Source: a virus
DNA: 27,287 bases
Direction: 5' to 3' (one strand)
Virus record (IMG/VR): IMGVR_UViG_3300034118_000819
Span: 1 to 27,287 of that record
The position numbers and the translations under genes were made by a program. Of the stretch, positions 780-17,601 are shown in pieces (the first letter of the stretch is position 1; each line of letters opens with the position of its first letter). The notes beneath the pieces were generated by a model. It saw only the letters and a program-made list of their open reading frames with translations, searched no databases and was not told the origin of the DNA.

Positions 780-2396
780 TTAATACATTCCCATCATTGG
801 GTCTTGTTGTTTTTCTTCTTTGTCTTTCTTTTCGAAAACTACGCTTTCTGTAGTCAATACTGTGCCTGCAACAGATACCGCGTTCTTTAGAGCAGTTATT
901 ACCACTTTAGCTGGATCTATTATTCCTGATTCGAAAGCGTCTACGATTTCGTGATTTTTTGCATCGTACACTTGACCGCTTGCTGGTACTCGATCCCACC
1001 AATTTTCAACTCCTGAGTTGGACAATATTTTTTTGAACGGAGCTTCCAAAGCTTTTTTAACTATGGATTGGGCTATAGAACGATTAGGATCTGTCGTATC
1101 TTCCAATTCTCTCGCTGCGTTTAGTAAAGTCGTTCCTCCTCCAGGTACGATACCATCCGAAAGCGCGGCTTTAGTTGCGAACAGCGCGTCTTCTACTCTG
1201 TCTTTCTTTTCTTTAATTTCTATCTCTGAGTTTCCTCCGACGCTTATTATTGCAACTCCACCTACAAGTTTACCTAACCTTTCTTGTAACTTTTCTTTTT
1301 CGTAAAAAGAGCTAGCTTTATCTATTTGAGTTTTGATTTCTTCTATCCTCATTTCGATCGATTCTTCAGATCCCTTTCCGTCAACTATTGTCGTTTCTTC
1401 TTTGGATACTGTGACCATTCTAGCTCTACCCAAATATTTAGAAATTTCGGATCTTGAAATCTTATCGAGTTTGTGTCCCTTGTCTTTAGACATTACTACA
1501 CCTCCGGTGATAACTGCCATATCTTCTAACAAAAGAGTTTTTCTATCTCCAAAATCTGGAGCTTTTACAGCACAAACTTGAACTATGCCGCGCATCTTGT
1601 TAACGATAAGCGTAGCAATTGCTTCGTCTCCAAAATCTTCTGCGATTACAAGTAGAGGTTTATTCTCTGCGTTAACTTTTGTCAACACTTCCACCATCTC
1701 TTGAGCAGTGGATATTCTACCGTCGTAGAATAAGATATAAGGATCTTCCAACGCTGCTTGCATAGTCGTATTGTTTGTAACGAAGTACGGAGATTTATAG
1801 CCTCTGTCGAATTGCACGCCTTCCACTATTTCCAAACTTGTTTCTCCTGTCTTCGATTCTTCGATAGTTACTACGCCCTCTCTACCAACTTTCTCTAAAG
1901 CGGAAGATATTAATTCTCCAACTTCGGAATCGTTGTTACCAGATATTGTGGCGACTTGTCTAATTTGATCTTGCGTAGAGATATCTATAGCGTTGCGTTT
2001 GATTATTTCAAGAACTAACGCTGAGACATTATTTATTTCGTTTTTTATGGCGACAGCGTTAGTGCCTTGACGAATGTGTTTTAATCCCTCTTTAATCATT
2101 TCGGTAGCTAACAGCGTAGAAGTCGTAGTTCCGTCTCCTGCTTCGTTTGCAGATTTTATAGAAACTTGCTTCACTAAAGTTGCTCCAATAGTTTCAATTG
2201 GATCTTCCAATTCTCCGAAGCTTTTGGCTACAGTTACTCCGTCTTTAGTAGCTTTTATTTCTCCACTCTGTTCTTTTATTATTACCGTTCTACCGCCAGG
2301 TCCCAACGTAGAAGATACAGCAGTATTTAGCTTATCTATACCTAATGATAATTTTTCTTTAAGCTCTTGTCCAATTACAAATTGTGTTTTACTCAT
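780..2396 (-). CDS. groEL: GroEL chaperonin (Cpn60), phage-encoded
   Basis: Full-length group I chaperonin of 538 residues, close to the roughly 545 of bacterial GroEL. The ATP-site signatures are present: KDGVTVAK with Asp52 early, GDGTTT at about 87-92, the VEDAL segment carrying the catalytic Asp (equivalent of Asp398), and VPGGGTT after it. The C-terminus ends DPMMGMY, so the Gly-Gly-Met tail that lines the bacterial cavity is almost gone. It follows groES by 7 bases, so the two are surely cotranscribed. The expected role is ATP-driven folding of phage proteins in the host cytoplasm, probably with its own GroES; whether it makes homo-rings or mixes with host GroEL is unknown. Starts at ATG 2396 with an A/T-rich upstream and no Shine-Dalgarno site. 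Confidence 0.97.
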
Positions 2397-2403
2397 GCTA
2401 TTA

Positions 2404-2709
2404 TTATTCTTTTATTATTGTTCCTAAAATTTCTGATTCTTTGGTCATAAAATAATCTTCTCCATCTATCACTATGCGTTGAGATCCTAATTTGGGAATC
2501 AACGCTACATCTCCGATGTCAAACGTAGAATCTATGTAAGTTCCAGTGTGATAGTTGTATTGTTCAGATATCGCAACAACTTCACCCATCTCAGGACGCT
2601 CTTGACCGAGGTTTGGTATAATGATGTTTCCATAAGCCTCTTCTGTGAGCTCTATTGGCTTTAACACAACGTAACCGTTTTTCGGTATGATTTTTGATTT
2701 TTGTTTCAT
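2404..2709 (-). CDS. groES: GroES co-chaperonin (Cpn10)
   Basis: 101 residues, the usual Cpn10 length. The N-terminal half has the mobile-loop region with a hydrophobic tripeptide (GNIIIPN, about residues 27-33) that would dock on GroEL, followed by EMGEVVAIS. The C-terminal strand pair is clear (RIVIDGEDYFMTKESEILG). It lies 7 bases upstream of groEL and 5 bases downstream of an 83-residue gene. T4 encodes only a GroES-like protein (gp31) that uses host GroEL; here both partners are present side by side. Confidence 0.93.
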   Translation of the reverse strand: MKQKSKIIPKNGYVVLKPIELTEEAYGNIIIPNLGQERPEMGEVVAISEQYNYHTGTYIDSTFDIGDVALIPKLGSQRIVIDGEDYFMTKESEILGTIIKE

Positions 2710-2714
2710 GATTT

Positions 2715-2966
2715 TTATTTAATTGTTTCGGTTTCTTGTTCCTGCGGTTGTTCAGAAATTTCCAGTTTAGTTACCTCTTCGTCTGGTATTATTTCTAGGT
2801 CTTGAACCATCTCGCAAAAGTAAAGGTAGCCGTCCCTTCTGAAAACGTGTTCAGAGTAGTATACCTCTTTTGCTGCGTCTACATTCTTAACGTGTTCTTC
2901 TCTAACTATCCTTTTTACTCGATAGAGTTGATCGTTAACATTTATAAATTGATTGATTAAAGACAT
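2715..2966 (-). CDS. hypothetical 83-residue protein between hsp20 and groES
   Basis: A short protein with an N-terminal beta-like half (QLYRVKRIV), a central motif with RRDGYLYFCEMV, and a very acidic, Gln/Glu-rich C-terminus from about residue 60 on. No membrane segment or signal. I have an impression of similar small proteins with a YLYFC-type strand in other phages but no function. It is embedded in the chaperone block (31 bases after hsp20, 5 bases before groES), so a link with protein folding or virion assembly is possible, not shown. Confidence 0.75.
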   Translation of the reverse strand: MSLINQFINVNDQLYRVKRIVREEHVKNVDAAKEVYYSEHVFRRDGYLYFCEMVQDLEIIPDEEVTKLEISEQPQEQETETIK

Positions 2967-2997
2967 AACTTGAATTCGGTAGGTCCCTTAAATATAA

Positions 2998-3450
2998 CTA
3001 AGCTTTTACTTCTGGTAAAGTTCTTGTTTGTGGTTTGAAAGTTAATTTTTTACTCTCTTTGTTTTCTTTAGTGGGTATTGAAATTACCAAAAGACCCTTA
3101 TCCATGTCTGCAGAAAGCTTAGTCAAGTCGTACTTGGCAGAAACTTTCCAGCTCAAATCAAAAGCCCTTTTTGCTATTCCTCTATAGAGGTACTTCTTTG
3201 TGTCTGCTTCTTTTCTTTCTGGTAAGTATTTGATTCTTAGGATATCATTATCGACTTCTATATCGATGTTTTTGGATTCGATACCCACTACGGCAATTTC
3301 GAAATTAATGCCTGTGCTTGTTTCGTAAATGTCAACTGGGTAGTTGATTTTTTCTGTTAATAAATTGAAATTGTTTGTGTGATCAAGCATGTTCTTCCAT
3401 AATAAATCGAACATGTTGTCAAATTCTTCAATGCTTAGAGCGTTGCTCAT
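2998..3450 (-). CDS. small heat-shock protein, Hsp20/alpha-crystallin family
   Basis: 150 residues with an N-terminal helical arm (1-35), then an alpha-crystallin domain from about residue 38 (YPVDIYETSTGINFEIAVVG) to about 130 (GLLVISIPTKE), and a short basic tail ending RTLPEVKA. The strand with YLYRGIAKRAFDLSW is typical of the phage branch of Hsp20 proteins found in T4-like marine viruses. The family is an ATP-independent holdase that forms oligomers in the cytoplasm. It heads the chaperone block. Its start is decided by a near-perfect Shine-Dalgarno sequence, unlike every other gene here. Confidence 0.92.
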   Translation of the reverse strand: MSNALSIEEFDNMFDLLWKNMLDHTNNFNLLTEKINYPVDIYETSTGINFEIAVVGIESKNIDIEVDNDILRIKYLPERKEADTKKYLYRGIAKRAFDLSWKVSAKYDLTKLSADMDKGLLVISIPTKENKESKKLTFKPQTRTLPEVKA

Positions 3451-3758: not shown

Positions 3759-6074
3759 TTAAGCGTGGCCGTCTCTCCAATTGTGAGATATTACGGGCTC
3801 TGCGTGTAATGGAACATTTAATTTAGTGGTATTTTCCATGCAGTATTGCACTATTTCAGCAGCTTCTTTTGAATGAGACTCTTCCACTTCTACGATTAAT
3901 TGGTCGTGTATTTGAGCGCAGACCCAACCAACTATTCCTTTTTTTGCAAATTCTCTATTTATTGCAATTGCAGCTCTATTAACTATCGAAGCCGCTAGAG
4001 ATTGAATCTGAAAATTCATGCTATTATTAAGACCGTTCTTATAATCTCTTTTTATATTGGTAACTTTATTTTCTCCGTATATTCTCTCTAACATCTTTCT
4101 TGCTTCCCAATCTAACATAGCGTCACCTATAGTTTCGTAAATCTTCTTAACTTTGGGTAAGTGTCTAATTCTACCAACTTGAGTTTTTATGAAACCGTGC
4201 TCTTTTACTTGAATGTTAGATCTTTCCATCCACTTTTTTAACTCTGGAAATCCATCTAAATAACCATCAACTAGTTTTTTCGCTTCTTTGGTGGGTATTT
4301 CAAGATTTTTACCCAGAGCGTACGCGCCCATGCCATAAGGTATACCCAAAGCATAAGCTTTCGCTTTACTTCTAACTTTAGGCAAATGCTTTCTTAAGTA
4401 ATTGTCTGCTTTTTTGTCTGGAGAATAGTCTTTGTATCCTTCTGTTTTTATAGCGATCGTGGAATAGAAATCGTAATCTTTTTTAAAAATTTCCATCAAG
4501 CCCTCGTCTCCGGATACGTGAGCAAACACACTCGGTTCAAGAGAAGTGTAATCGTCGTCTATAAAAACATTACTTTCTTCAGGCACAAAAAACGCCCTTA
4601 CCATGTTGTTGTAGTGAATTACGACTGGATTATCGTCGCCTTCGTCTTTTGGTCTTGGTAGCTGCTGTGCGTCCGAACCGTATCTGCCGGATATTGTTCC
4701 GTGTTGCTTGTAAGAAAAGTAATATTTACCGTCTTCCGAAGATTCAAGGAATCTATCAATGTAAGTAGAAGATATTTTAACCAATCGATTGTAAACTCGC
4801 AAGTCTTTTGCCCACTGCTCTTTATCTGCTATAGATTGTATAAAATCATCGTCGAATTGATCTGCACCTTTTTTAGTTTTAGAGAGAGGCTTGAATCCCA
4901 TTACTCCAAAAACTATTTTTCCCATTTGAAGTTTGGATTGGATGTTTATATACCCATCGTTTGCGTCCTTCCACATCTTCATAGAAACTTTTTCTAGGTT
5001 ACTCTTTATAGAATCATCTATTTCTCCAGTAACCAAAAACTTCTTGTACGAAGAATCGGGCATTACATAAATAGTTCTCTTTACTATGTTGTATTTTTCT
5101 TTTTCGCTATCGTACTCTATGGGTAAATCGTACATTTTAGCTAGCTCTTGAGCAAACTGTCCTTTATTCGTTGGAGGATACGCTGTTATTGCTTCGTTTA
5201 CTACCCAAGCTCTTACTCCTTCATGAGATAGTATGTTAGTCAATACCCTGGTCTTGTACTCAGCTAGAGTGTTGACAATGTCTTTTTTTGCTTGACAAAT
5301 CAAATCCATATCCAGTTTTACACCCTTTTCTTCCATTTTTATGGTTACTTCTTTACAAAGGGGCATGACTTCGTCGACAAAAAAGAAATTAGATAGTTCT
5401 TCTTGATGTAATATCTTCAAATAATAGTCACAAATTCTCAAAGTCAAATCAGTATCAGCTGCGGCGTATTTAGCCAAAACGTTTAAGTCAGCTTTATATA
5501 TTTCAAAGTTAGAAGAAGTTACAGAACCTCCGTTTGCTTTTATCGAAGCTTTAAGCTCTAACTGCTCTTCGTTAGCCGCCTTTTCTACGTCCAAACCTAT
5601 TTCTTGTTGTATAGCTTTAGCTATCTCTTTTAGCGCAAATTTTCCATTAATTCCGTCTTCCTTTACGGTGTGAACTAAAAGGATAGTATCTATGTAAAGA
5701 GCTTGAGTCAAATCTACTCCGTAACAATGCTTTACGAATCTACAGTCGAAAGAAGAATTGTGCATGATTAGTTTCTTTTTACTAATCACATCACGTATAA
5801 ACATTGTTGCTATTTTTTCTGTTTCTACTAAAGTTCCATCGCAGTCTATAAAGTATTTTTCTAATTGATCAGATTCTTTATTGTACACATAAGTTGGTAA
5901 ATAGTAACCGTTTCCAATTTCTGTGCTTATAGAAAATCCAACTATTTTACCCTGTCTGGGATTTAGAGAATTGGTTTCAGTATCAAAAGATAAGATGTCC
6001 GCTGCTTTAGCAGCTTGTGTCATACCTAAGAGTTTATCGTAGGTATCTACTAGTACATAACTTTTTTCATTCAT
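3759..6074 (-). CDS. polA: family-A DNA polymerase with 3'-5' exonuclease domain
   Basis: 771 residues from ATG 6074; a TTG two codons upstream (6080) is a less likely start. The exonuclease domain (about 1-230) has FDTETNSL (Asp31, Glu33), HNSSFD (Asp110) and the Y-x3-D motif (Tyr203, Asp207). The polymerase domain has SGRYGSDAQQLP (about 462), motif A DYTSLEPSVFA (catalytic Asp508, steric-gate Glu513), motif B (Arg568, Lys572, Tyr580), the N-x3-Q pair (Asn687, Gln691) and motif C IHDQ (Asp724). No 5' nuclease domain is attached; that activity is a separate gene at 11846-12886. This is presumably the replicative polymerase, replacing the family-B gp43 of T4. Oddities: motif C has Gln where Glu is usual, and the motif-B Phe is Leu. 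Confidence 0.95.
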   Translation of the reverse strand: MNEKSYVLVDTYDKLLGMTQAAKAADILSFDTETNSLNPRQGKIVGFSISTEIGNGYYLPTYVYNKESDQLEKYFIDCDGTLVETEKIATMFIRDVISKKKLIMHNSSFDCRFVKHCYGVDLTQALYIDTILLVHTVKEDGINGKFALKEIAKAIQQEIGLDVEKAANEEQLELKASIKANGGSVTSSNFEIYKADLNVLAKYAAADTDLTLRICDYYLKILHQEELSNFFFVDEVMPLCKEVTIKMEEKGVKLDMDLICQAKKDIVNTLAEYKTRVLTNILSHEGVRAWVVNEAITAYPPTNKGQFAQELAKMYDLPIEYDSEKEKYNIVKRTIYVMPDSSYKKFLVTGEIDDSIKSNLEKVSMKMWKDANDGYINIQSKLQMGKIVFGVMGFKPLSKTKKGADQFDDDFIQSIADKEQWAKDLRVYNRLVKISSTYIDRFLESSEDGKYYFSYKQHGTISGRYGSDAQQLPRPKDEGDDNPVVIHYNNMVRAFFVPEESNVFIDDDYTSLEPSVFAHVSGDEGLMEIFKKDYDFYSTIAIKTEGYKDYSPDKKADNYLRKHLPKVRSKAKAYALGIPYGMGAYALGKNLEIPTKEAKKLVDGYLDGFPELKKWMERSNIQVKEHGFIKTQVGRIRHLPKVKKIYETIGDAMLDWEARKMLERIYGENKVTNIKRDYKNGLNNSMNFQIQSLAASIVNRAAIAINREFAKKGIVGWVCAQIHDQLIVEVEESHSKEAAEIVQYCMENTTKLNVPLHAEPVISHNWRDGHA

Positions 6075-6077
6075 AAT

Positions 6078-6110
6078 CAAATATAACTTATTGCTTGCTA
6101 ATACAAAAAA
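6078..6110 (-). promoter_or_regulatory. possible Bacteroidota-type promoter before polA
   Basis: The minus strand reads TTTTTTG, 18 bases, TATATTTG, then ATTATG. TATATTTG fits the TAnnTTTG -7 element of Bacteroidota and TTTG the -33 element. The start codon follows so closely that the message would be nearly leaderless, which weakens the call; AT-rich chance is a fair alternative. Confidence 0.3.
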
Positions 6111-10003: not shown

Positions 10004-11380
10004 CTATTTTGTACTTAATTCAAAGAATTTTTGAGCTAAGTACTTTCTTTCGTCGCTACTAAATCCGCCTATTTGTTGCTTAGGTTGAGAATTTCCGTCA
10101 TCGAAAGTTAGATCATCATCGTTCATTTGAGAGTTACTCACATCTATAAATCCACACGCAGTATTTACAGTGGCCGAATACGTCATACCATCGCCGCCGT
10201 ATCTGTTTTTCATAATGTGTATTCTACCAGTACCGTTAACTTTGTCCATTCTTTTTCTCGATAAAGACATGGCAAAATCCGCTATCATTAGTTTGTTGTA
10301 AGATCCTGCGGCTTTATCTCCTTCGATAACATCGTCCTTAGCGCCAGCACGATTAACTTGAGATACGGTCCATATAGGCACTTTGAGTTCTCTTGCCATT
10401 CCCTTTATGCTTGCATATAGATCGTCCAATTCGTCTTTACGTTCTTTGCTCCTGTGAACAGGTTTGAGTAGATCGACGTAATCTATTATGATCAAGTCGG
10501 GGACTATGCCCATGTTTTTACACTTGTTATAGTGATTTTCTATTGCGTGAGGACTAGCTTTTCCCATAGAAAATTCTCGTATGATCAACTTTCCTGGTAA
10601 TTTACTTACAGCTTCTTCGACCTCGACTCTGTGCATGTGTATGTCTCGTACGTCTATTCCTGTAAATATAGCATCGTACCTTTTACCCACGTAATCTTCT
10701 GAAAGTTCTAACGTGTAATGGGCTACCGTCATGCCAGCTTTTACAGCCATTGCTCCGAGGTTAACTAGCATCCAAGATTTACCTCCTCCTGGATTTCCGA
10801 ATATTAGTCCCAAATCTCCAACTCCCAGTCCACCAGCCAACAATTCATTGACGTTTGGCCACGGCGTAGGTACTACTTTTCTAACATCTTGTCTAAATCT
10901 AGACTCAACGTCCCTATCGTATTCGTGACCTATCGACTTGTCTTGCCCAGACTTAAGAGCGTTTTTTATAATAAGCTCTATCTCTTCGTATTTACCGTTT
11001 TCTAGTAAACTAACCGAATTTAATATTGCTTTTTTTATTTGTTGATTTCTACAAAAATTATTGAATTCTTGCTCAACGTACTCTCTATCTTCGTTACTGG
11101 CTTTTAGAGACTCTTTTAAGTTTTCTATTACAGACACACGCAACACTTCGTTGTCGATCTTCTTCACTTCTGCTTGCAAAGAGTCCAGAGTGGGTACTGT
11201 ATTGTACTTATAGTAGTACCTAAGCACTTCTGCGACTATCCACTGACCAGATGGACTATCGAAGTAGTCTTTTTCTATCGCGTCGTGTATATTTTGTAAA
11301 AACTCTTTGTGTTTTAATAAACTCGATAGTACTTTTATTTGAAAACCGTGTCCGTATTGATTTAGTGAATTTAATACCAT
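10004..11380 (-). CDS. replicative DNA helicase, DnaB/T4 gp41 type
   Basis: 458 residues from ATG 11380 (MVLNSLNQYG), close to T4 gp41 (475). A longer frame from 11470 overlaps the upstream gene and adds residues without helicase character, so I reject it. The N-terminal helical domain spans about 1-150. The RecA-like motor has Walker A GNPGGGKS (195-202), Walker B LIIIDYVDLL (296-305), the VPIWTVSQVNR segment (335-344) and a late KNRYGG motif (391-396). The ring would unwind the fork 5'-3' and load the primase; no primase gene is in the window. The acidic C-terminal stretch (about 419-430) may be a partner-binding tail. Confidence 0.95.
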   Translation of the reverse strand: MVLNSLNQYGHGFQIKVLSSLLKHKEFLQNIHDAIEKDYFDSPSGQWIVAEVLRYYYKYNTVPTLDSLQAEVKKIDNEVLRVSVIENLKESLKASNEDREYVEQEFNNFCRNQQIKKAILNSVSLLENGKYEEIELIIKNALKSGQDKSIGHEYDRDVESRFRQDVRKVVPTPWPNVNELLAGGLGVGDLGLIFGNPGGGKSWMLVNLGAMAVKAGMTVAHYTLELSEDYVGKRYDAIFTGIDVRDIHMHRVEVEEAVSKLPGKLIIREFSMGKASPHAIENHYNKCKNMGIVPDLIIIDYVDLLKPVHRSKERKDELDDLYASIKGMARELKVPIWTVSQVNRAGAKDDVIEGDKAAGSYNKLMIADFAMSLSRKRMDKVNGTGRIHIMKNRYGGDGMTYSATVNTACGFIDVSNSQMNDDDLTFDDGNSQPKQQIGGFSSDERKYLAQKFFELSTK

Positions 11381-11397
11381 TATTATTTTATGTTTTT

Positions 11398-11853
11398 TTA
11401 ATTGGCTGATACTGCGAATGACACTGGTAAGCTTGGTGCGTTTATAACTTGGATGTTTTTGTAAATACACGCTCTAGTATATTTTATAACCTTTTCTTCG
11501 CCAGAGAATACTAATCTATTATCAGAGCATTGAGCAATCATTGGAAGTGTCTCTTCTCTTTCACAATAAAGTATAACACTTATATTCTCTTCTTCATCTT
11601 TTATATGATATTTTTTATAGTTTTGTAATCTTTCATCTAGTGTGCCATACATTGTATTTACGAAGCCAGAACATGTGTGTTTAATAAGATTACCAAAAAC
11701 ATCTTTTTGTCCATCTGTATATGTTAGCTGAAATACTGGAGTATTAATTTTATATATTTTCACTCTATTCTCATGTGCGAAAGATAATAGAGGAGAAAAT
11801 GCTATAGCTCCAGCAGATAGACCCAAAGTTTTTAAGAAAGCACCTCTATTCAT
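11398..11853 (-). CDS. exported protein of unknown function with Tat-like leader
   Basis: 151 residues. The N-terminus MNRGAFLKTLGLSAGAIAFS has the layout of a twin-arginine leader of the Bacteroidota type (NRRxFLKTLG), with the second Arg replaced by Gly, then a hydrophobic core and a plausible cleavage site after SFA (residue 26). The mature part is beta-rich and has four Cys (61, 97, 109, 129), which could form two disulfides outside the cytoplasm. Its start overlaps the end of the 5' nuclease gene by 8 bases and its stop is 17 bases before the helicase start, so it is part of the replication transcript although its product should leave the cytoplasm. I recognise no family; envelope modification or superinfection exclusion are guesses. 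Confidence 0.75.
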   Translation of the reverse strand: MNRGAFLKTLGLSAGAIAFSPLLSFAHENRVKIYKINTPVFQLTYTDGQKDVFGNLIKHTCSGFVNTMYGTLDERLQNYKKYHIKDEEENISVILYCEREETLPMIAQCSDNRLVFSGEEKVIKYTRACIYKNIQVINAPSLPVSFAVSAN

Positions 11854-12886
11854 GTTTTTTTATTTTACTCAATTCGTGAAAAGCGTTGTATAACCACGAC
11901 TGTAAGTTATTTATGGAATTTCCTAAATCGTCTTCATTATATAAAATTTGAAATTCTCGTGGATAAAAATTCTTATTAGGATTATCCAATAACTCAGCTA
12001 TGTGTTCCATAGATTCTTGTGGAATGTTAGGATCGTGAAGATCCATCAATAGTTTGTTTATTGCTAATTGATTCTTAAAAGCTAAAATTTTTGAATGGAC
12101 ATTATCGTTACCCAATTCACACTTTTCTAACAACATATTTAGCGTAAATTCTTTTTCTGTGGTCAATTCTGGGAAATGCTTTACGAGAGTTTTTATTCCA
12201 AGCCCATTAACGCCCGGTACGTTATCTCCTTTGTCACCGACTAATATTTTATGAGTTAAGAAATTTTTTGAAGTTACTTCGTACTCCTCTAAAACTCTCT
12301 TTTTGTTATAGAATATTTTTTTAGTAGGAGAGTAAACTTCTACGTTATCGTTGACCAACTGTAAATAATCTCTATCACTGGATAGTATGGTTATCTTCGA
12401 TTCTGGTAACTGTTTTACCAAATAACCAATAACGTCATCGGCCTCTACTTTATCTATGGACAATAAGTCGACAGGAAGACACTTTAGATAGTCTATCAAC
12501 CTGACCAATTGATTGGTTATTGCCTCTGACTCTTGCTCTTGATTTTCAAACGTATCCCAGTTAGTGATTCGTCTTATTCCCCTATTAGCTTTATATTCCG
12601 GATATATATACCTCTTGTTTGTGGATGAACCTTGCCCATCGAACACCAGTATGATTCTGGTTGGTCTGACCAGGCTTATCGCGTAACTCAGAGACCTAAG
12701 ATAGCCAGTTAAACCTCCCACATGATTGCCACTTTTATTAATGTGTCTAATTACAGTAAAAGATCTTATAAAGGTGTTTAAAGAATCAACTAATAATACT
12801 CTATCGTTGACTTTTTTCTGTACGACTTCTTCTTGATCTGATCCTTTTCCTAAAGAGTCAAATATCTTTTTGTAATCTTCTTTCAA
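11846..12886 (-). CDS. 5'-3' exonuclease / flap endonuclease (T4 RNase H or Pol I 5' nuclease type)
   Basis: 346 residues with the full PIN/FEN metal-site set: Asp34 (LLVDSLN), Asp83 (LVFDGQG), Glu148-Asp150-Asp151 (VEADDVIG), Asp171 and Asp173 (SSDRDYL), Asp218 and Asp221 (VGDKGDNVPGV), the last leading into the helix-3-turn-helix (NGLGIKTLVKHFP). The enzyme removes RNA primers and 5' flaps. Because the phage PolA lacks a 5' nuclease domain, this gene supplies it in trans. The start is TTG: an in-frame TAA lies two codons upstream and no ATG occurs in the first 45 codons. It runs 8 bases into the next gene. Confidence 0.93.
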   Translation of the reverse strand: MKEDYKKIFDSLGKGSDQEEVVQKKVNDRVLLVDSLNTFIRSFTVIRHINKSGNHVGGLTGYLRSLSYAISLVRPTRIILVFDGQGSSTNKRYIYPEYKANRGIRRITNWDTFENQEQESEAITNQLVRLIDYLKCLPVDLLSIDKVEADDVIGYLVKQLPESKITILSSDRDYLQLVNDNVEVYSPTKKIFYNKKRVLEEYEVTSKNFLTHKILVGDKGDNVPGVNGLGIKTLVKHFPELTTEKEFTLNMLLEKCELGNDNVHSKILAFKNQLAINKLLMDLHDPNIPQESMEHIAELLDNPNKNFYPREFQILYNEDDLGNSINNLQSWLYNAFHELSKIKKHE

Positions 12887-13166: not shown

Positions 13167-14237
13167 TTAGTCTTCTGATGTATCGAATATCTCTAAATTA
13201 TCTGCTTCTTCTTCCACTATATCAAATGTATCCGATCCTAGAATTTTTGCCCATTCATGGGAGTGAGTACTTTGATAAGCTTTAATAGCCGCGGGCTTAT
13301 CATCGATGAATCCATGAGGAGTCATTATTACTTTTGCAACTGCTGTAACTCCCGTAACGTGATTTTTATCACAAGAAATCCTTGTTCTCTTAGCAAATTC
13401 TATGTCTTTACCGCCTTTGGTAGCTTTGATCTTATTAGTACCCGCCTTTGCTATGCTACCGAACGTAATAACTAGTGAAGAGTCAAACATCATAGTTGTA
13501 CCGCCCTTGTTTTGCAATGTAGGCTGTCCCATCGGATGATCTGGTTTTGCTACCCAAACTTTATTTATTGCCACGAGCGTGTTTGTATATTGCTGACTTT
13601 CTTTTCTGCTTAATACAATTTTTTGATTTATATAATTACCAAATTGAGTTGACATAGCCCCAGCGGCCCACTCGTTATTATTTGTGGACTTTTCTATACT
13701 CATTCTACATGGTATCGATCCAACAGAATCCCAAAAGAAGCACAGATCATAAGGTAAATTACCTTTCTTTTGTTCGTCTAACATATCTGCTATAAAAGCT
13801 GATACATCCTCTATGCATTGTAATTTTTCTCTATCTACGTATACAAAAAATCCGTTGTAATCCTTAACAACTCCGTCGTCGTCTGGGATTTCTTCAAACT
13901 GTAAACCCATTTGCCTTGCGTGCTCCCAACTCCATTTCATTTCTGTGATTATGAAGACAGGTAATATTCCCATCTTTTGACAGGATACAGCAGCTTCTAG
14001 TAAGGCTGTAGTTTTTCCTGTGTCGGAGTGGCCACGTAAAAGCGTTATGTGACCTACTGGTATACCTGGAATTTGTAGGGCTTCCATAAACGCCGATGAC
14101 AGGGGGATCCATTTGTTGTCTTTGAACTTTATGGATACAGTAGATAAATTTTTGCTTTTTTTGAAGTTGTCAAGATTGAACTCCTTCTTTATTGCGCTAG
14201 ATACGGAACTATTAAGCCCTACTTTAGCCTTAGCCAT
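13167..14237 (-). CDS. uvsX: UvsX/RecA-like recombinase
   Basis: 356 residues, near T4 UvsX (391). Walker A is GHSDTGKT (69-76), the catalytic Glu is in IITEMKW (Glu99), and Walker B is DLCFFWDSV (164-172). A region around 215-260 (VAINKVWVAKP, GGTTMMFDSSL) fits the DNA-binding loops and oligomer core. The C-terminal tail is acidic, as in RecA proteins that regulate DNA binding. It forms filaments on ssDNA for strand exchange, recombination-dependent replication and repair. It starts 21 bases after the ssDNA-binding protein gene; UvsX and gp32 work together in T4. Confidence 0.95.
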   Translation of the reverse strand: MAKAKVGLNSSVSSAIKKEFNLDNFKKSKNLSTVSIKFKDNKWIPLSSAFMEALQIPGIPVGHITLLRGHSDTGKTTALLEAAVSCQKMGILPVFIITEMKWSWEHARQMGLQFEEIPDDDGVVKDYNGFFVYVDREKLQCIEDVSAFIADMLDEQKKGNLPYDLCFFWDSVGSIPCRMSIEKSTNNNEWAAGAMSTQFGNYINQKIVLSRKESQQYTNTLVAINKVWVAKPDHPMGQPTLQNKGGTTMMFDSSLVITFGSIAKAGTNKIKATKGGKDIEFAKRTRISCDKNHVTGVTAVAKVIMTPHGFIDDKPAAIKAYQSTHSHEWAKILGSDTFDIVEEEADNLEIFDTSED

Positions 14238-14258: not shown

Positions 14259-15074
14259 TTAAAAATCGAATAAGTCGTCCAGCTTTTTATCTACTTCAGA
14301 CTTAGGTGTACTTAAGGTAAACAACTCTGACTTTTTAGGGGCAGGATTATCCCAAGGTAAATCGCTAGCTGGCTCTTGTTTAGTAGATTGTTCGGTCTCT
14401 TCCACCGTTTCTTCAGGATTTAAGTGAGACATGAGATGAGATTTCATATCGTCGTAACTGTAATTCTTAAAGAGTTCGTTGGGATTTGGTTGCTCTGATA
14501 ACCAAAGTTTAACTTTATTTGCGTCGTCTGACAACGCAGTAACTTTAGTTTTGATACGAACTGTTGAGGTGTTGTAACTAAGACCAGTCTGCTCTTTACT
14601 CTGAGTCTCGACTAAAATGTCGCGACCTGAGATCACATCTGTGTAATCGCCTACATCCTCGTCTTCCGCAATGGCCAATAACTCCATGTAAACTTGTTTA
14701 CCGAATTCCCACAATCTAACGCCTTTGTCCTCTTCGTTTCTAACGATTACGGGTACGAATACTCGCAATTTTGGATCCAATTTTTTTGCCAAAGACCAGT
14801 CTTCTTTGTTGGAAGATTTCCTGAGCTGTTGCGCAAATTCGATGATTGGATCTTTTTGACCAAAACTCTTTGGCGAGATCATCGTTTTTTTGTTAATGTC
14901 GTAGTGAAAAAATAATTCCCGGAAAGGATTCGACTTATCGAACTTAGAGGGAACTATTCTTACCAAGTGTTTCCCTACAGCAGGTTTCCAAATTGTCTTG
15001 CTGTAATCTTTGCTTTGGCCGCTTCTTGGATTTTGTAATGCAGCCAAGCGATTTTTTAGTGCTTGAATGTCCAT
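14259..15074 (-). CDS. ssDNA-binding protein, T4 gp32-like
   Basis: 271 residues, near gp32 (301). The basic N-terminal region (1-30), the core beginning WKPAVGKHLVRIVPSKFDKS with FRELFFHYDI, and the acidic C-terminus from about 215 ending KKLDDLFDF follow the gp32 plan: cooperativity arm, OB-fold core and partner-binding tail. The whole protein has no Cys, so the zinc site of T4 gp32 (His plus three Cys) is absent; the stretch KKTMISPKSFGQKDPI stands where those Cys would be. Next to uvsX as expected for partners. It would coat ssDNA at the fork and tune UvsX, helicase and polymerase. Confidence 0.88.
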   Translation of the reverse strand: MDIQALKNRLAALQNPRSGQSKDYSKTIWKPAVGKHLVRIVPSKFDKSNPFRELFFHYDINKKTMISPKSFGQKDPIIEFAQQLRKSSNKEDWSLAKKLDPKLRVFVPVIVRNEEDKGVRLWEFGKQVYMELLAIAEDEDVGDYTDVISGRDILVETQSKEQTGLSYNTSTVRIKTKVTALSDDANKVKLWLSEQPNPNELFKNYSYDDMKSHLMSHLNPEETVEETEQSTKQEPASDLPWDNPAPKKSELFTLSTPKSEVDKKLDDLFDF

Positions 15075-15131: not shown

Positions 15132-15593
15132 TTATCTATCGAGTCCGCCTACTTCTATGACGTTATGTATAACCGTGTTTAACTTTCTTAAAGAATCACC
15201 TTGAGTTAATAGCATTGAGTTTTTGTAATCTTGCCAATTGATGCTAAATTTTGTGTCCAACACTCCGTAATTTAGTGATTTTATTAGAGTGTTTAATGCG
15301 TTAATGGTATACAGAGTGTTCGTATCTTTTTTACGGTGCAACAAAATAGTATTAGGCAGTATGCGAGTTTTTATCGGAGATTCGTCTATCTCTATGTTGT
15401 AAGTACACATGTATTCATCCGACTCGGGACTGGCCAAAACAAAAATCTTACCGTACATTATTCTGTACTGTCGATTAATTTTGTATATTGATTCTTGCAA
15501 ATCTTCTTTGTGCGAAAACGTGCAAAATAGTTTGTTCATTATTTGCTCTCTTGTAAGTTCTATTTCCTTGTTCTTATAATTCATCGTAACCAT
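15132..15593 (-). CDS. hypothetical 153-residue protein between PolA-like gene and SSB
   Basis: Soluble alpha/beta protein with KIFVLASP near residue 50, a strand NTILLHRKK (about 83-91), then TLYTINALNTLIKSL and an INWQDYKNSMLL segment. No family recognised; the impression is of a conserved T4-like phage protein that might bind replication partners. The start is ATG 15593 (MVTMNYK) or ATG 15584; the first is 8 bases after a GATATTTAT element that overlaps the upstream stop codon. It lies 57 bases before the SSB gene. Confidence 0.8.
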   Translation of the reverse strand: MVTMNYKNKEIELTREQIMNKLFCTFSHKEDLQESIYKINRQYRIMYGKIFVLASPESDEYMCTYNIEIDESPIKTRILPNTILLHRKKDTNTLYTINALNTLIKSLNYGVLDTKFSINWQDYKNSMLLTQGDSLRKLNTVIHNVIEVGGLDR

Positions 15594-15601
15594 TTATGTT
15601 A

Positions 15602-15610
15602 ATAAATATC
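15602..15610 (-). promoter_or_regulatory. GATATTTAT promoter-like element before the 153-residue gene
   Basis: TAGATATTTATTAACATAAATG on the minus strand contains, in order, the last base-pairs of the PolA-like gene (stop TAG), the element and the start codon of the next gene. Confidence 0.45.
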
Positions 15611-16920
15611 TATTTATTTTCGTAAAACGAATATGTTTCTCCGTACTTGTACTTAACTTTCATGTCTCCCTTCTCTAGTATTTCTTTTATTCCAACTAAC
15701 GTATCTTTACCATCGTTTGGATCGAAGTCAAACAAAAAAGAGTCGTAAGTTATCATAACAAGTTTTGTATTTGTCCCAACTAAAAATTCTCTCAACTCCA
15801 ATATTTTATCTACGTTTTCTTTAGTTTCTAAATTTTGTATTATGTAATTAAATAACTTCATAGGCGTCATATCTTCGTAATACTTAACTATTCTTCCAGT
15901 TGGAAGTTCAAACTGTCTATCGTTCGTATACTTTTGATATATGCATGCTACGTACTCAGAAGTTTTTGCAAAAAACGGTATCTTTTCGTATTTCTTTTGT
16001 ACGCCTCCATAAAGTTGTTTAAACGTTATTCCCTTAGATTCAGCGTACTCTTCTTGAGACACTTCTGATTTTCCAAAGTAAGATTTAGCTAAGTACGAGT
16101 GTACACTGTGCTCTTCTTTTGGAAATTGATAATCTATTAATTTTGCTATTAATCTTGGGTGATAAGCGTCGAAATCAAACTCTACAAAGTAATTATCTGC
16201 TACGAAACACTTTCTATATTCGCCTTCTTTTGGTATAGCTAAAAAGTTGATACCATTAAAAGAGTTGGTCGGTCTTCCTGTTAAATTGTACAAATTATAA
16301 TAGGTTAGTAATTTACTTCCTATTGAAGAGTGGTGTAAACACTTTATCTGGTAAGTCTTACTTGCACAATCTATATCTACGCCAACTCCGGATTCCTCTA
16401 CGTACTTGTAAGCGGAGGTTAATTTATTTATAAAATCCGTATTACGCTCTTTACCGAAATACTGTTTTACGCTGTCGTATTCGTTTTCGCAATATTCGTA
16501 GTGTTTACTCACTGGTATTATTTCATTAACTGAATAATCTTCGTAATACTTGTTATAAAAATCGTTGTGCAACTTTGTATGATGATCGATGTTTTCAAGA
16601 GAGTTCTTTTCGTCGAGTACAGAATGGTTTACATCTACTAAATTTTTGTGGTCAAAAAAATACGTGTGATATTTTTTATCAAGTACATATAATTTATTGT
16701 GAGCCATCAAAAAATTCTTAATTAAATCAAAACTCAAACTAAAAGTTTCGTGATGCTTTACGCAAAGCACGTACCCCTTGTTTCCAGGATTGTAATACAC
16801 TAAAGTTGGACTTTCTAAAGACGGATGACAATAATCGTTACCCGCTATTATTTTTATGTATGCGGTATCGACTGCTTGTAACTTTGAAAATTGTTCTTTG
16901 TTCTCTACGAGATAGTGCAT
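15610..16920 (-). CDS. divergent family-A polymerase-like protein
   Basis: 436 residues. The C-terminal two thirds can be laid on the PolA polymerase domain motif by motif: VGVDID (about 179-184), TGRPTNSFNGINFLAIP (214-230, the TGR segment), motif A EFDFDAYHPRLIA (catalytic Asp249), motif B SKGITFKQLYGG (Lys296, Phe300, Tyr304), the N-x3-Q pair (Asn358, Gln362) and motif C MITYDSFLFDF (Asp393). Substitutions: His254 at the steric-gate Glu, Ser394 at the motif-C Glu, and no Arg four residues before the motif-B Lys. The first 170 residues could be a shrunken exonuclease-like domain without the DxE residues. Two metal-binding Asp remain, so activity is plausible. It lies between the tail block and SSB/UvsX. 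Alternatives: an inactive accessory subunit or a specialised repair or primer-making polymerase. Confidence 0.75.
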   Translation of the reverse strand: MHYLVENKEQFSKLQAVDTAYIKIIAGNDYCHPSLESPTLVYYNPGNKGYVLCVKHHETFSLSFDLIKNFLMAHNKLYVLDKKYHTYFFDHKNLVDVNHSVLDEKNSLENIDHHTKLHNDFYNKYYEDYSVNEIIPVSKHYEYCENEYDSVKQYFGKERNTDFINKLTSAYKYVEESGVGVDIDCASKTYQIKCLHHSSIGSKLLTYYNLYNLTGRPTNSFNGINFLAIPKEGEYRKCFVADNYFVEFDFDAYHPRLIAKLIDYQFPKEEHSVHSYLAKSYFGKSEVSQEEYAESKGITFKQLYGGVQKKYEKIPFFAKTSEYVACIYQKYTNDRQFELPTGRIVKYYEDMTPMKLFNYIIQNLETKENVDKILELREFLVGTNTKLVMITYDSFLFDFDPNDGKDTLVGIKEILEKGDMKVKYKYGETYSFYENK

Positions 16921-16971: not shown

Positions 16972-17601
16972 TTATTTTTCGGTAGGTTTTGCGAATTGAT
17001 CGTATTTTTCACCTATAAATTCTTTTATGCCTAGAAAAGACTTATTCGCGTCTTCTACCAATCTTTTATTTGTGTCTATTATTCCAGTGCGGATATCGTA
17101 TTGAGATACTCTCTTTTGATTCAATGGGCCAGTGAGTTTCCAAAACAGACCTATAGCTTGATACATACTGATATCGTAATCTGCTGTACCGTTTTTTATG
17201 GAATTATACTCTTGTTCAGACACCTCTGTGACGTATCCCTGTTGATTTATTCGTTTAACGAAATACCTAATTACGTATCCCTTATCGTAATCGCTCTTAA
17301 GAGGCGAAGGATAATAAGGCACAGGAGCAGACTGGGATTTACCAGTTAGCTTTGCTTGTTTGGTTAATGTTCTAATAGACTTAGCAGATAAACTCTGACC
17401 AGCGACTCCTGGTGCGTTTGTGTAATCTTCTATTTTGGTTAACTCTATAGACGGACCAATTATCGGATCTGGACCTGAGAAGGCTCTTCCATCGAAAGTC
17501 AAATGATACTTACCAGAATAAGGAATTCCCGATTCGGTGTATTCGTTACCCGAAGTGGTCAAATTCGTCTTTACTTTTGATTTAGGATAATATCTTATCA
17601 T
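16972..17601 (-). CDS. putative virion/baseplate protein (209 residues)
   Basis: Starts MIRYYPKSKVKTNL and has GKYHLTFDGRAFSGPDPIIG (about 30-49), then a Lys/Ser/Pro-rich linker and an alpha/beta C-terminal half with YVIRYFVKRINQQGYVTEV. No Cys, signal or membrane segment. It is the last gene of the tail block, 4 bases after the hub-lysozyme gene, so it is probably a baseplate or hub partner; no T4 counterpart is recognised. Confidence 0.75.
   Translation of the reverse strand: MIRYYPKSKVKTNLTTSGNEYTESGIPYSGKYHLTFDGRAFSGPDPIIGPSIELTKIEDYTNAPGVAGQSLSAKSIRTLTKQAKLTGKSQSAPVPYYPSPLKSDYDKGYVIRYFVKRINQQGYVTEVSEQEYNSIKNGTADYDISMYQAIGLFWKLTGPLNQKRVSQYDIRTGIIDTNKRLVEDANKSFLGIKEFIGEKYDQFAKPTEK

Follow-up and report, generated by a model that had tools for sequence, protein, structure and literature searches.

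A predicted thumbless homologue of family-A DNA polymerases is encoded before the SSB and UvsX genes in a large group of phages

The window analyzed here, a virus record of 27,287 bases, carries at positions 15610-16920 on the minus strand an open reading frame with an ATG start (436 amino acids, stop codon included in the coordinates). Sequence profiles and structure prediction identify its product as a remote but real homologue of family-A DNA polymerases. The protein belongs to a family that, judged from the sequences collected, is large in phages, many of them T4-like, and lacks a name. From sequence and model together, we put at about even the chance that it is an accessory DNA polymerase of family-A descent, thumbless and catalytically competent, which would act at recombination intermediates. 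As originally predicted, it is the second family-A-like protein of the window: a resident full-length PolA of 773 amino acids (Pfam DNA_pol_A 4.3e-67, exonuclease 6.1e-11) is encoded at 3759-6080 (minus strand) and has an exonuclease domain, a Glu steric gate and a long thumb region. Motif C of this PolA reads Asp-Gln and its O-helix Phe is replaced by Leu, and the same was observed in the PolA of Flavobacterium phage immuto.

Searches with the window protein on its own gave no match in Pfam or PHROGs (E<=1), nor among PDB sequences (E<=10). Klenow was matched by a profile built from 56 relatives, with an E-value of 3.4e-6, and 32 of these 56 relatives, the window protein not among them, individually matched Pfam DNA_pol_A (E<=0.01). 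Immuto gp001 scored above the cut-off of this Pfam family (42.7 versus 34.3 bits); neither the protein of Microcystis phage Mel-JY01 nor the window protein gave a match to it. The PHROG 'DNA polymerase' family phrog_17 was matched by 16 of the 56 members, so that counting 'PolA' matches per phage genome can mix two proteins. The AlphaFold2 model of the window protein (pLDDT 95.7, pTM 0.93) was used for a Foldseek search, in which the apicoplast polymerase (8.8e-20) and Klenow (7.3e-18) were matched. When the model was superposed on Bst Pol I, residues 1-434 corresponded to residues 300-876 of Bst, with a Z-score of 26.2 and an rmsd of 3.8 Å over 410 residues. The predicted model has the palm-fingers arrangement of Klenow and Bst Pol I, in agreement with the original assignment, and no single-subunit (T7-type) RNA polymerase was present among the 50 structural matches listed.

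A tblastn search against annotated phages returned 54 records. Among the matches listed, six records have clear relatives, namely four immuto records (36% identity), LR756508 (33%) and Mel-JY01 (28%, annotated 'hypothetical'), and 34 further records gave weak matches (E 0.07 and above), nearly all to annotated DNA polymerases. Three relatives were found in the genome collection, all in metagenome-assembled bins, and the plasmid search yielded zero. When the family was compared by hhalign with a few resident PolAs, the alignment did not reach significance (E 0.13), which fits a great distance, but equally a shallow PolA set.

All residues named in the original prediction were found at the numbers given there: TGR at 214-216, Asp249, His254, Lys296, Phe300, Tyr304, Asn358, Gln362, Asp393 and Ser394. 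On the minus strand, the protein is laid out as an exonuclease-like N-terminal domain (residues 1-160, positions 16441-16920), recognized by a fold match with a strand at 19-26, and a short linker in the place of the thumb (176-213, 16282-16395), delimited by residue counts, profile and model. These are followed by a T-x-R-P segment equivalent to TGR (214-218, 16267-16281) with an invariant Arg216, motif A (247-256, 16153-16182) with the catalytic Asp249 and with His254 at the steric-gate position, and motif B or O helix (292-305, 16006-16047) with Lys296, Phe300 and Tyr304. An N-Y-x-x-Q-x-x-E-T signature (358-366, 15823-15849) contains Gln362, Glu365 and Thr366, and motif C (390-398, 15727-15753) has Tyr392-Asp393-Ser/Ala394.

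The strongest structural oddity, absent from the earlier description, is the loss of the thumb subdomain, which alignment and model both predict to be missing. In a joint alignment of 15 family members and 11 phage PolAs, the distance from a conserved Glu to the Arg of the TGR segment is 23-43 residues in the family versus 130-237 in the PolAs. Positions 194 to 207 of the family profile face residues 231 to 329 of the Klenow chain, so that 12 profile positions stand against 97 Klenow residues, and from residue 190 to residue 218 the model lacks a long helix. The exonuclease-like domain retains its fold in the model, and its first strand (19-26) is free of Asp and Glu in the window protein. At the ExoI columns the Asp-Glu pair was found in 0 of the 15 members, in an alignment that is unreliable there, as most of the 11 PolA controls fail at these columns too; in this same alignment the ExoIII Tyr is gapped in 15/15 members and the ExoII Asp in 11/15. 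His32, His56, Lys83, Asp96 and Pro136 are conserved in >95% of the family.

In the direction of transcription, the polymerase homologue is followed by genes on the minus strand that encode a small protein (15132-15593), a gp32-like single-stranded DNA-binding protein (SSB; 14259-15074, Pfam gp32 2e-12), a UvsX/RecA-like recombinase (13167-14237, PHROG UvsX-like 6.7e-17), a 5'-3' exonuclease (11846-12886, Pfam 5_3_exonuc_N 8.2e-31) and a DnaB-like replicative helicase (10004-11470, PHROG 6.5e-74). Beyond the helicase, the ribonucleotide reductase subunits and then PolA are encoded. The claimed place before SSB and UvsX is thus confirmed, with one small conserved gene in between. A 151-residue ORF with a signal-like hydrophobic N-terminus lies between the 5'-3' exonuclease and helicase genes (11398-11853, minus strand). 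Near PolA, at 780-3450 (minus strand), GroEL, GroES and a small heat-shock-like protein were named from reading the ORFs; in immuto, GroES/GroEL are annotated directly after PolA, and 7-deazaguanine DNA-modification genes (QueC, QueD, QueE, FolE, QueF and DpdA, as annotated; NC_055915.1, 18.6-37.0 kb) are found before it. On the upstream side of the homologue, a conserved gene (16972-17601, minus strand) occurs in 152 of the 162 loci with room for it; like the other upstream genes in the window, it matched no Pfam or PHROG family. On the same side in immuto, tail and baseplate genes are annotated, and capsid genes of the T4 type are present in this phage, which is why the phages are called T4-like here. 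A 1,582-residue frame with long acidic repeats was observed upstream of the homologue in LR756508 (L006, 1495-6243).

Among loci with room for the respective gene, the small protein was found in 151/157, SSB in 115/117, UvsX in 96/97, the exonuclease in 79/80 and DnaB in 65/66, and in a reverse scan baited with the neighbour the small protein and the polymerase gene occurred together in 39/39. The gene order is near-fixed, which can reflect inheritance within one phage lineage and not function. In about a quarter of the loci, the polymerase gene and the gene for the small protein are more than ∼200 bases apart, and in some more than 2 kb, so that other genes can lie between them. The small protein has the conserved core HRKK-x-TNTLYTINALN and an alpha/beta model with a pLDDT of 89.6. 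The searches assigned it to no convincing family. In the structural comparisons, the best Foldseek E-value was 0.27, and the best Z-score of 5.0 was tied, included the T-antigen origin-binding domain and is at noise level. An ordinary PolA was observed before a UvsY-like gene, small genes, SSB and RecA in Bacillus phage 000TH009, and before two small genes and SSB in Bacillus phage CM1.

The near-fixed position before SSB and UvsX suggests synthesis on recombination intermediates. The favoured accessory polymerase would be an enzyme of family-A descent in which the thumb, and probably the proofreading site too, has been lost, and which works on DNA gripped by other recombination-replication proteins. 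It would make short DNA additions at 3' ends, in UvsX-made D-loops, at gaps and at annealed ends, after which the processive replicase of the respective phage, either PolA or PolB, would take over. The grip on the DNA could be supplied by SSB, by UvsX or by the small neighbour, which is a candidate for the missing grip. Both polymerization itself and the recombination-intermediate substrate are what we infer here. Against this explanation it counts that poor binding to duplex DNA would be expected of a thumbless polymerase, that the position of Klenow Arg754 is not kept, and that one 111-kb record has neither PolA nor PolB.

A PolA frame of at least 700 amino acids was present in 20 of the 72 records searched for DNA_pol_A (the window not counted); in a genome bin (G047), PolA lies on another contig than the homologue. 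A DNA_pol_B match over the cut-off was obtained in 8 of 70 records searched, and none of the records had both PolA and PolB. Eleven of the phage or viral records reach 100 kb; seven of these have PolA, three have PolB and one has neither. Most of the other records are fragments. In this last record (G064, 111 kb, the record of locus L296), the homologue is present and neither a full PolA nor PolB was found; G064 may be a fragment. Another record, G063, was considered as a case in which the homologue is the sole polymerase, and this was rejected when PolB was found in it. A DnaE-type replicase was not found in the five records searched for it. The suggested pairing with a full PolA is therefore not general, and homologues do not always co-occur with one, as some relatives coexist with PolB instead. 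The extra gene is retained whichever replicase type is present. Passages on crAss-like phages describe switches between replicases of type A and B (PMC10354031).

Among 32 records searched for a homologue of the DnaG-type primase of immuto, many of them fragments, 8 were found to carry one, including 7 of the 9 that reach 100 kb. Primer synthesis, one of the roles first proposed, is disfavoured by this count as a replacement for the primase, and the candidate role of a replicative primase substitute, for which genomes without DnaG would be expected, was rejected on it. As the protein has no predicted thumb and the genome has a separate replicase and usually a primase, it is unlikely to serve in bulk replication or in routine priming.

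The replacement of the motif-A Glu steric gate by His254, noticed in the window protein, holds across the family: the position is His in 278 of 278 covering rows of the alignment (one gap), versus Glu in 11/11 phage PolAs, several of which had been picked as controls because a family member matched them by tblastn. The second replacement, of the motif-C Glu by Ser394, is also present, but does not stand as a special feature. This Glu is absent from 10 of the 11 aligned phage PolAs, of which only one has it, and Ser or Ala occurs in 8 of the 11, so that a motif-C Ser was ruled out as an unusual trait.

The His gate and the missing thumb are the main points in favour of a different chemistry, in which the protein would be an untemplated (terminal-transferase-like), ribonucleotide-using or primer-making polymerase. 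His254 would then alter sugar selection, and the missing thumb would free the site from duplex DNA, as in the Abi reverse transcriptases. Thumbless polymerases are active elsewhere, and those of the Abi type (AbiK/Abi-P2 reverse transcriptases) make DNA without a template according to passages of PMC9508834, which makes an unusual reaction a serious alternative, though an unlikely one. His is bulky, however, and could still exclude ribonucleotides, and in the large records with a DnaG-type primase homologue priming is already covered. Moreover, the T-x-R segment, Lys296 and Gln362, which we take to be the primer/template and dNTP contacts of family A, are kept in the protein.

Conservation was determined in three differently baited sets. 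The first comprised 162 sequences, obtained by two scans baited with motif A or motif C peptides and supplemented with annotated and genome-bin relatives; it contains the window and 161 of 166 loci, after five loci of <330 amino acids were dropped, and L001-L004 were omitted as nearly identical to the window or the window itself. Asp249, His254, Lys296, Tyr304, Gln362 and Glu365 are each found in 162/162 of these sequences, Phe300 in 157 (Trp in the other 5) and Asp393 in 160/161, counts that are partly built in by the bait. In 78 loci baited by the stretch before motif A, Asp249 and His254 were each found in 77/77, Lys296 in 78/78, Gln362 in 77/78 (one Glu) and Asp393 in 76/76, gaps not counted. 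This set includes two duplicate contigs (L179 and L233) already present, so that the 279 rows of the combined alignment contain at least two repeats. The neighbour-baited scan gave 67 new loci, of which 14 repeat contigs were omitted and 14 others have <1.5 kb upstream; 12 of the latter 14 still show a piece of the polymerase gene. The gene was present in 39/39 new contigs that extend 1.5 kb or more upstream, with Asp249, His254, Lys296, Tyr304, Gln362 and Asp393 each in 39/39. As the best 80 rows were kept from each of four large scans, the family size is a lower bound and distant members are under-sampled.

Over the 279 aligned rows, Asp249, Lys296 and Tyr304 show no substitution, position 393 is Asp in 275 rows and Thr in one (three gaps), Gln362 is found in 278/279, Glu365 and Thr366 in 279/279, and Phe300 is replaced by Trp in 5/279. 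Asp249 and Asp393 are thus conserved across the homologues as originally expected, including in the sets gathered without motif bait. The O-helix position of Klenow Arg754, which presumably contacts the nucleotide triphosphate and which corresponds to Tyr292 in the window protein, is Tyr in 258/279 rows, the rest being other residues or gaps. Tyr292 was found in 162/162 and 78/78 sequences of the first two sets, but in only 18/39 (16 gaps) of the neighbour-baited set, and was dropped as a family-wide feature, likewise Asp251. The median dN/dS was 0.077 (range 0.024-0.175) in 161 of 192 close pairs, which have a dS of 0.1-1.5 and are not independent of each other. Purifying selection on this gene is strong. 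That three differently baited sets have such conserved catalytic residues argues for chemistry, and together with the low dN/dS it indicates that the homologue is probably an active enzyme.

The same data weigh on the explanation that the protein is a non-catalytic or barely catalytic scaffold, in which the polymerase fold would bind 3' ends or the helicase or SSB, for example handing recombination intermediates to the replisome, a role that can be likened to that of T4 gp59. The lost thumb, the lost Arg of the nucleotide-binding helix, the fixed place beside SSB and UvsX and the coexistence with a complete replicase would all fit such a scaffold. A pure scaffold, however, would need none of the four residues Asp249, Lys296, Tyr304 and Asp393, of which only the last is substituted, once; the dN/dS also speaks for constraint, though it does not tell the cause. 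We consider this explanation quite unlikely.

The descent of the family was analyzed in a tree of the palm-fingers region (15 members, 11 PolAs, 220 columns, LG+G4), which is unrooted and was drawn with a midpoint root. The family forms one clade opposite all PolAs, with a support of 100 and a stem of 1.40, and because it clusters apart from all 11 PolAs in this way, its sequences place it as a separate lineage and not a fresh PolA copy. The resident PolA of the window pairs with that of immuto among the other PolAs, within a part of the tree that has low support (49-54 at deeper nodes). When the family profile was compared with the 11 PolAs, those of CRP-3 and HMO-2011 scored highest and the resident PolA was not reported. 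Although a full PolA occurs in the same record, a recent, decaying duplicate of it is very improbable, as this idea is contradicted by the separate clade and its long stem, the missing profile match to the resident PolA, the occurrence of the family in phages with PolB and the purifying selection. By analogy with the PolAs that precede SSB in Bacillus phages 000TH009 and CM1, the ancestor of the family may have been a PolA at such a place, demoted after its role had passed to another replicase.

Taken together, the sequences indicate a family that is homologous to family A and probably polymerase-like in its action, without two defining features, the thumb and the gate Glu. A large natural family that lacks both and keeps the catalytic centre represents another use of the family-A fold, and His in place of Glu provides a natural test of sugar choice in family A. 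It also draws attention to an as yet unexplained step in the way phages, for example those of Flavobacterium and Microcystis, replicate through recombination. A more far-reaching reading, which as a whole is doubtful, is that of a distinct polymerase class. Its members would have a thumbless family-A core, His as the sugar gate and an exonuclease domain that has degenerated. The small neighbour and/or SSB-UvsX would grip the DNA for them in trans, and the additions made at recombination ends would be untemplated, specific to strand invasion or contain ribonucleotides. If true, this would be a fixed extra polymerase function in this phage group, kept whether the replicase is PolA or PolB.

Textbook family-A DNA polymerases have a thumb and a Glu gate, and both were seen in 11/11 phage controls. 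With Klenow and Bst Pol I, the window protein shares the fold over 410 of its 436 residues, and in our alignment it has equivalents of what we take to be Klenow Asp705, Lys758, Phe762, Tyr766, Gln849 and Asp882. Unlike Klenow, the family has no thumb, His for Glu710 and Ser/Ala for Glu883, and does not keep the Arg754 position. The PolAs of the marine Puniceispirillum and Roseobacter phages HMO-2011 and CRP-3, which were selected because tblastn with family members had matched them, were hit by the family profile at 2.5e-6 and 5.8e-14, respectively (Z=1000). They resemble the family in their motif-C D-S, the N-x-x-x-Q-S helix and Y-G-G/A after the O helix, but are 680-705 residues long, with 225-237 residues from Glu to TGR and a Glu steric gate.

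A direct homologue with an annotation is gp001 of Flavobacterium phage immuto (YP_010114413.1, 'DNA polymerase family A'), which has the same neighbours, in a phage whose full PolA is gp199 and which is cultured on Flavobacterium sp. LMO8. Its name occurs only in the genome record, and no description was found in the portion of the literature covered. Mel-JY01 (WWT39333.1) and LR756508, an uncultured phage of 484 kb, encode homologues with the same neighbour order; in these two records PolB was found and no full PolA, the PolB match of LR756508 being spread over two frames. Such a protein was not described in the titles and abstract openings listed by searches of open-licence literature, nor in passages of PMC9508834, PMC7824862, PMC10354031 and PMC9324360. 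The polymerase of Thermus phage Tt72 is, in the passages of PMC9324360, an active family-A enzyme with Asp-Ser in motif C, so that Ser at this position is compatible with activity; unlike the family, it has a thumb, a Glu gate and a strong exonuclease. Polymerase cores that lack a thumb are known from the Abi reverse transcriptases and from a viral PolX, which is still active according to the abstract of PMC5330486, both of which belong to polymerase families unrelated to family A.
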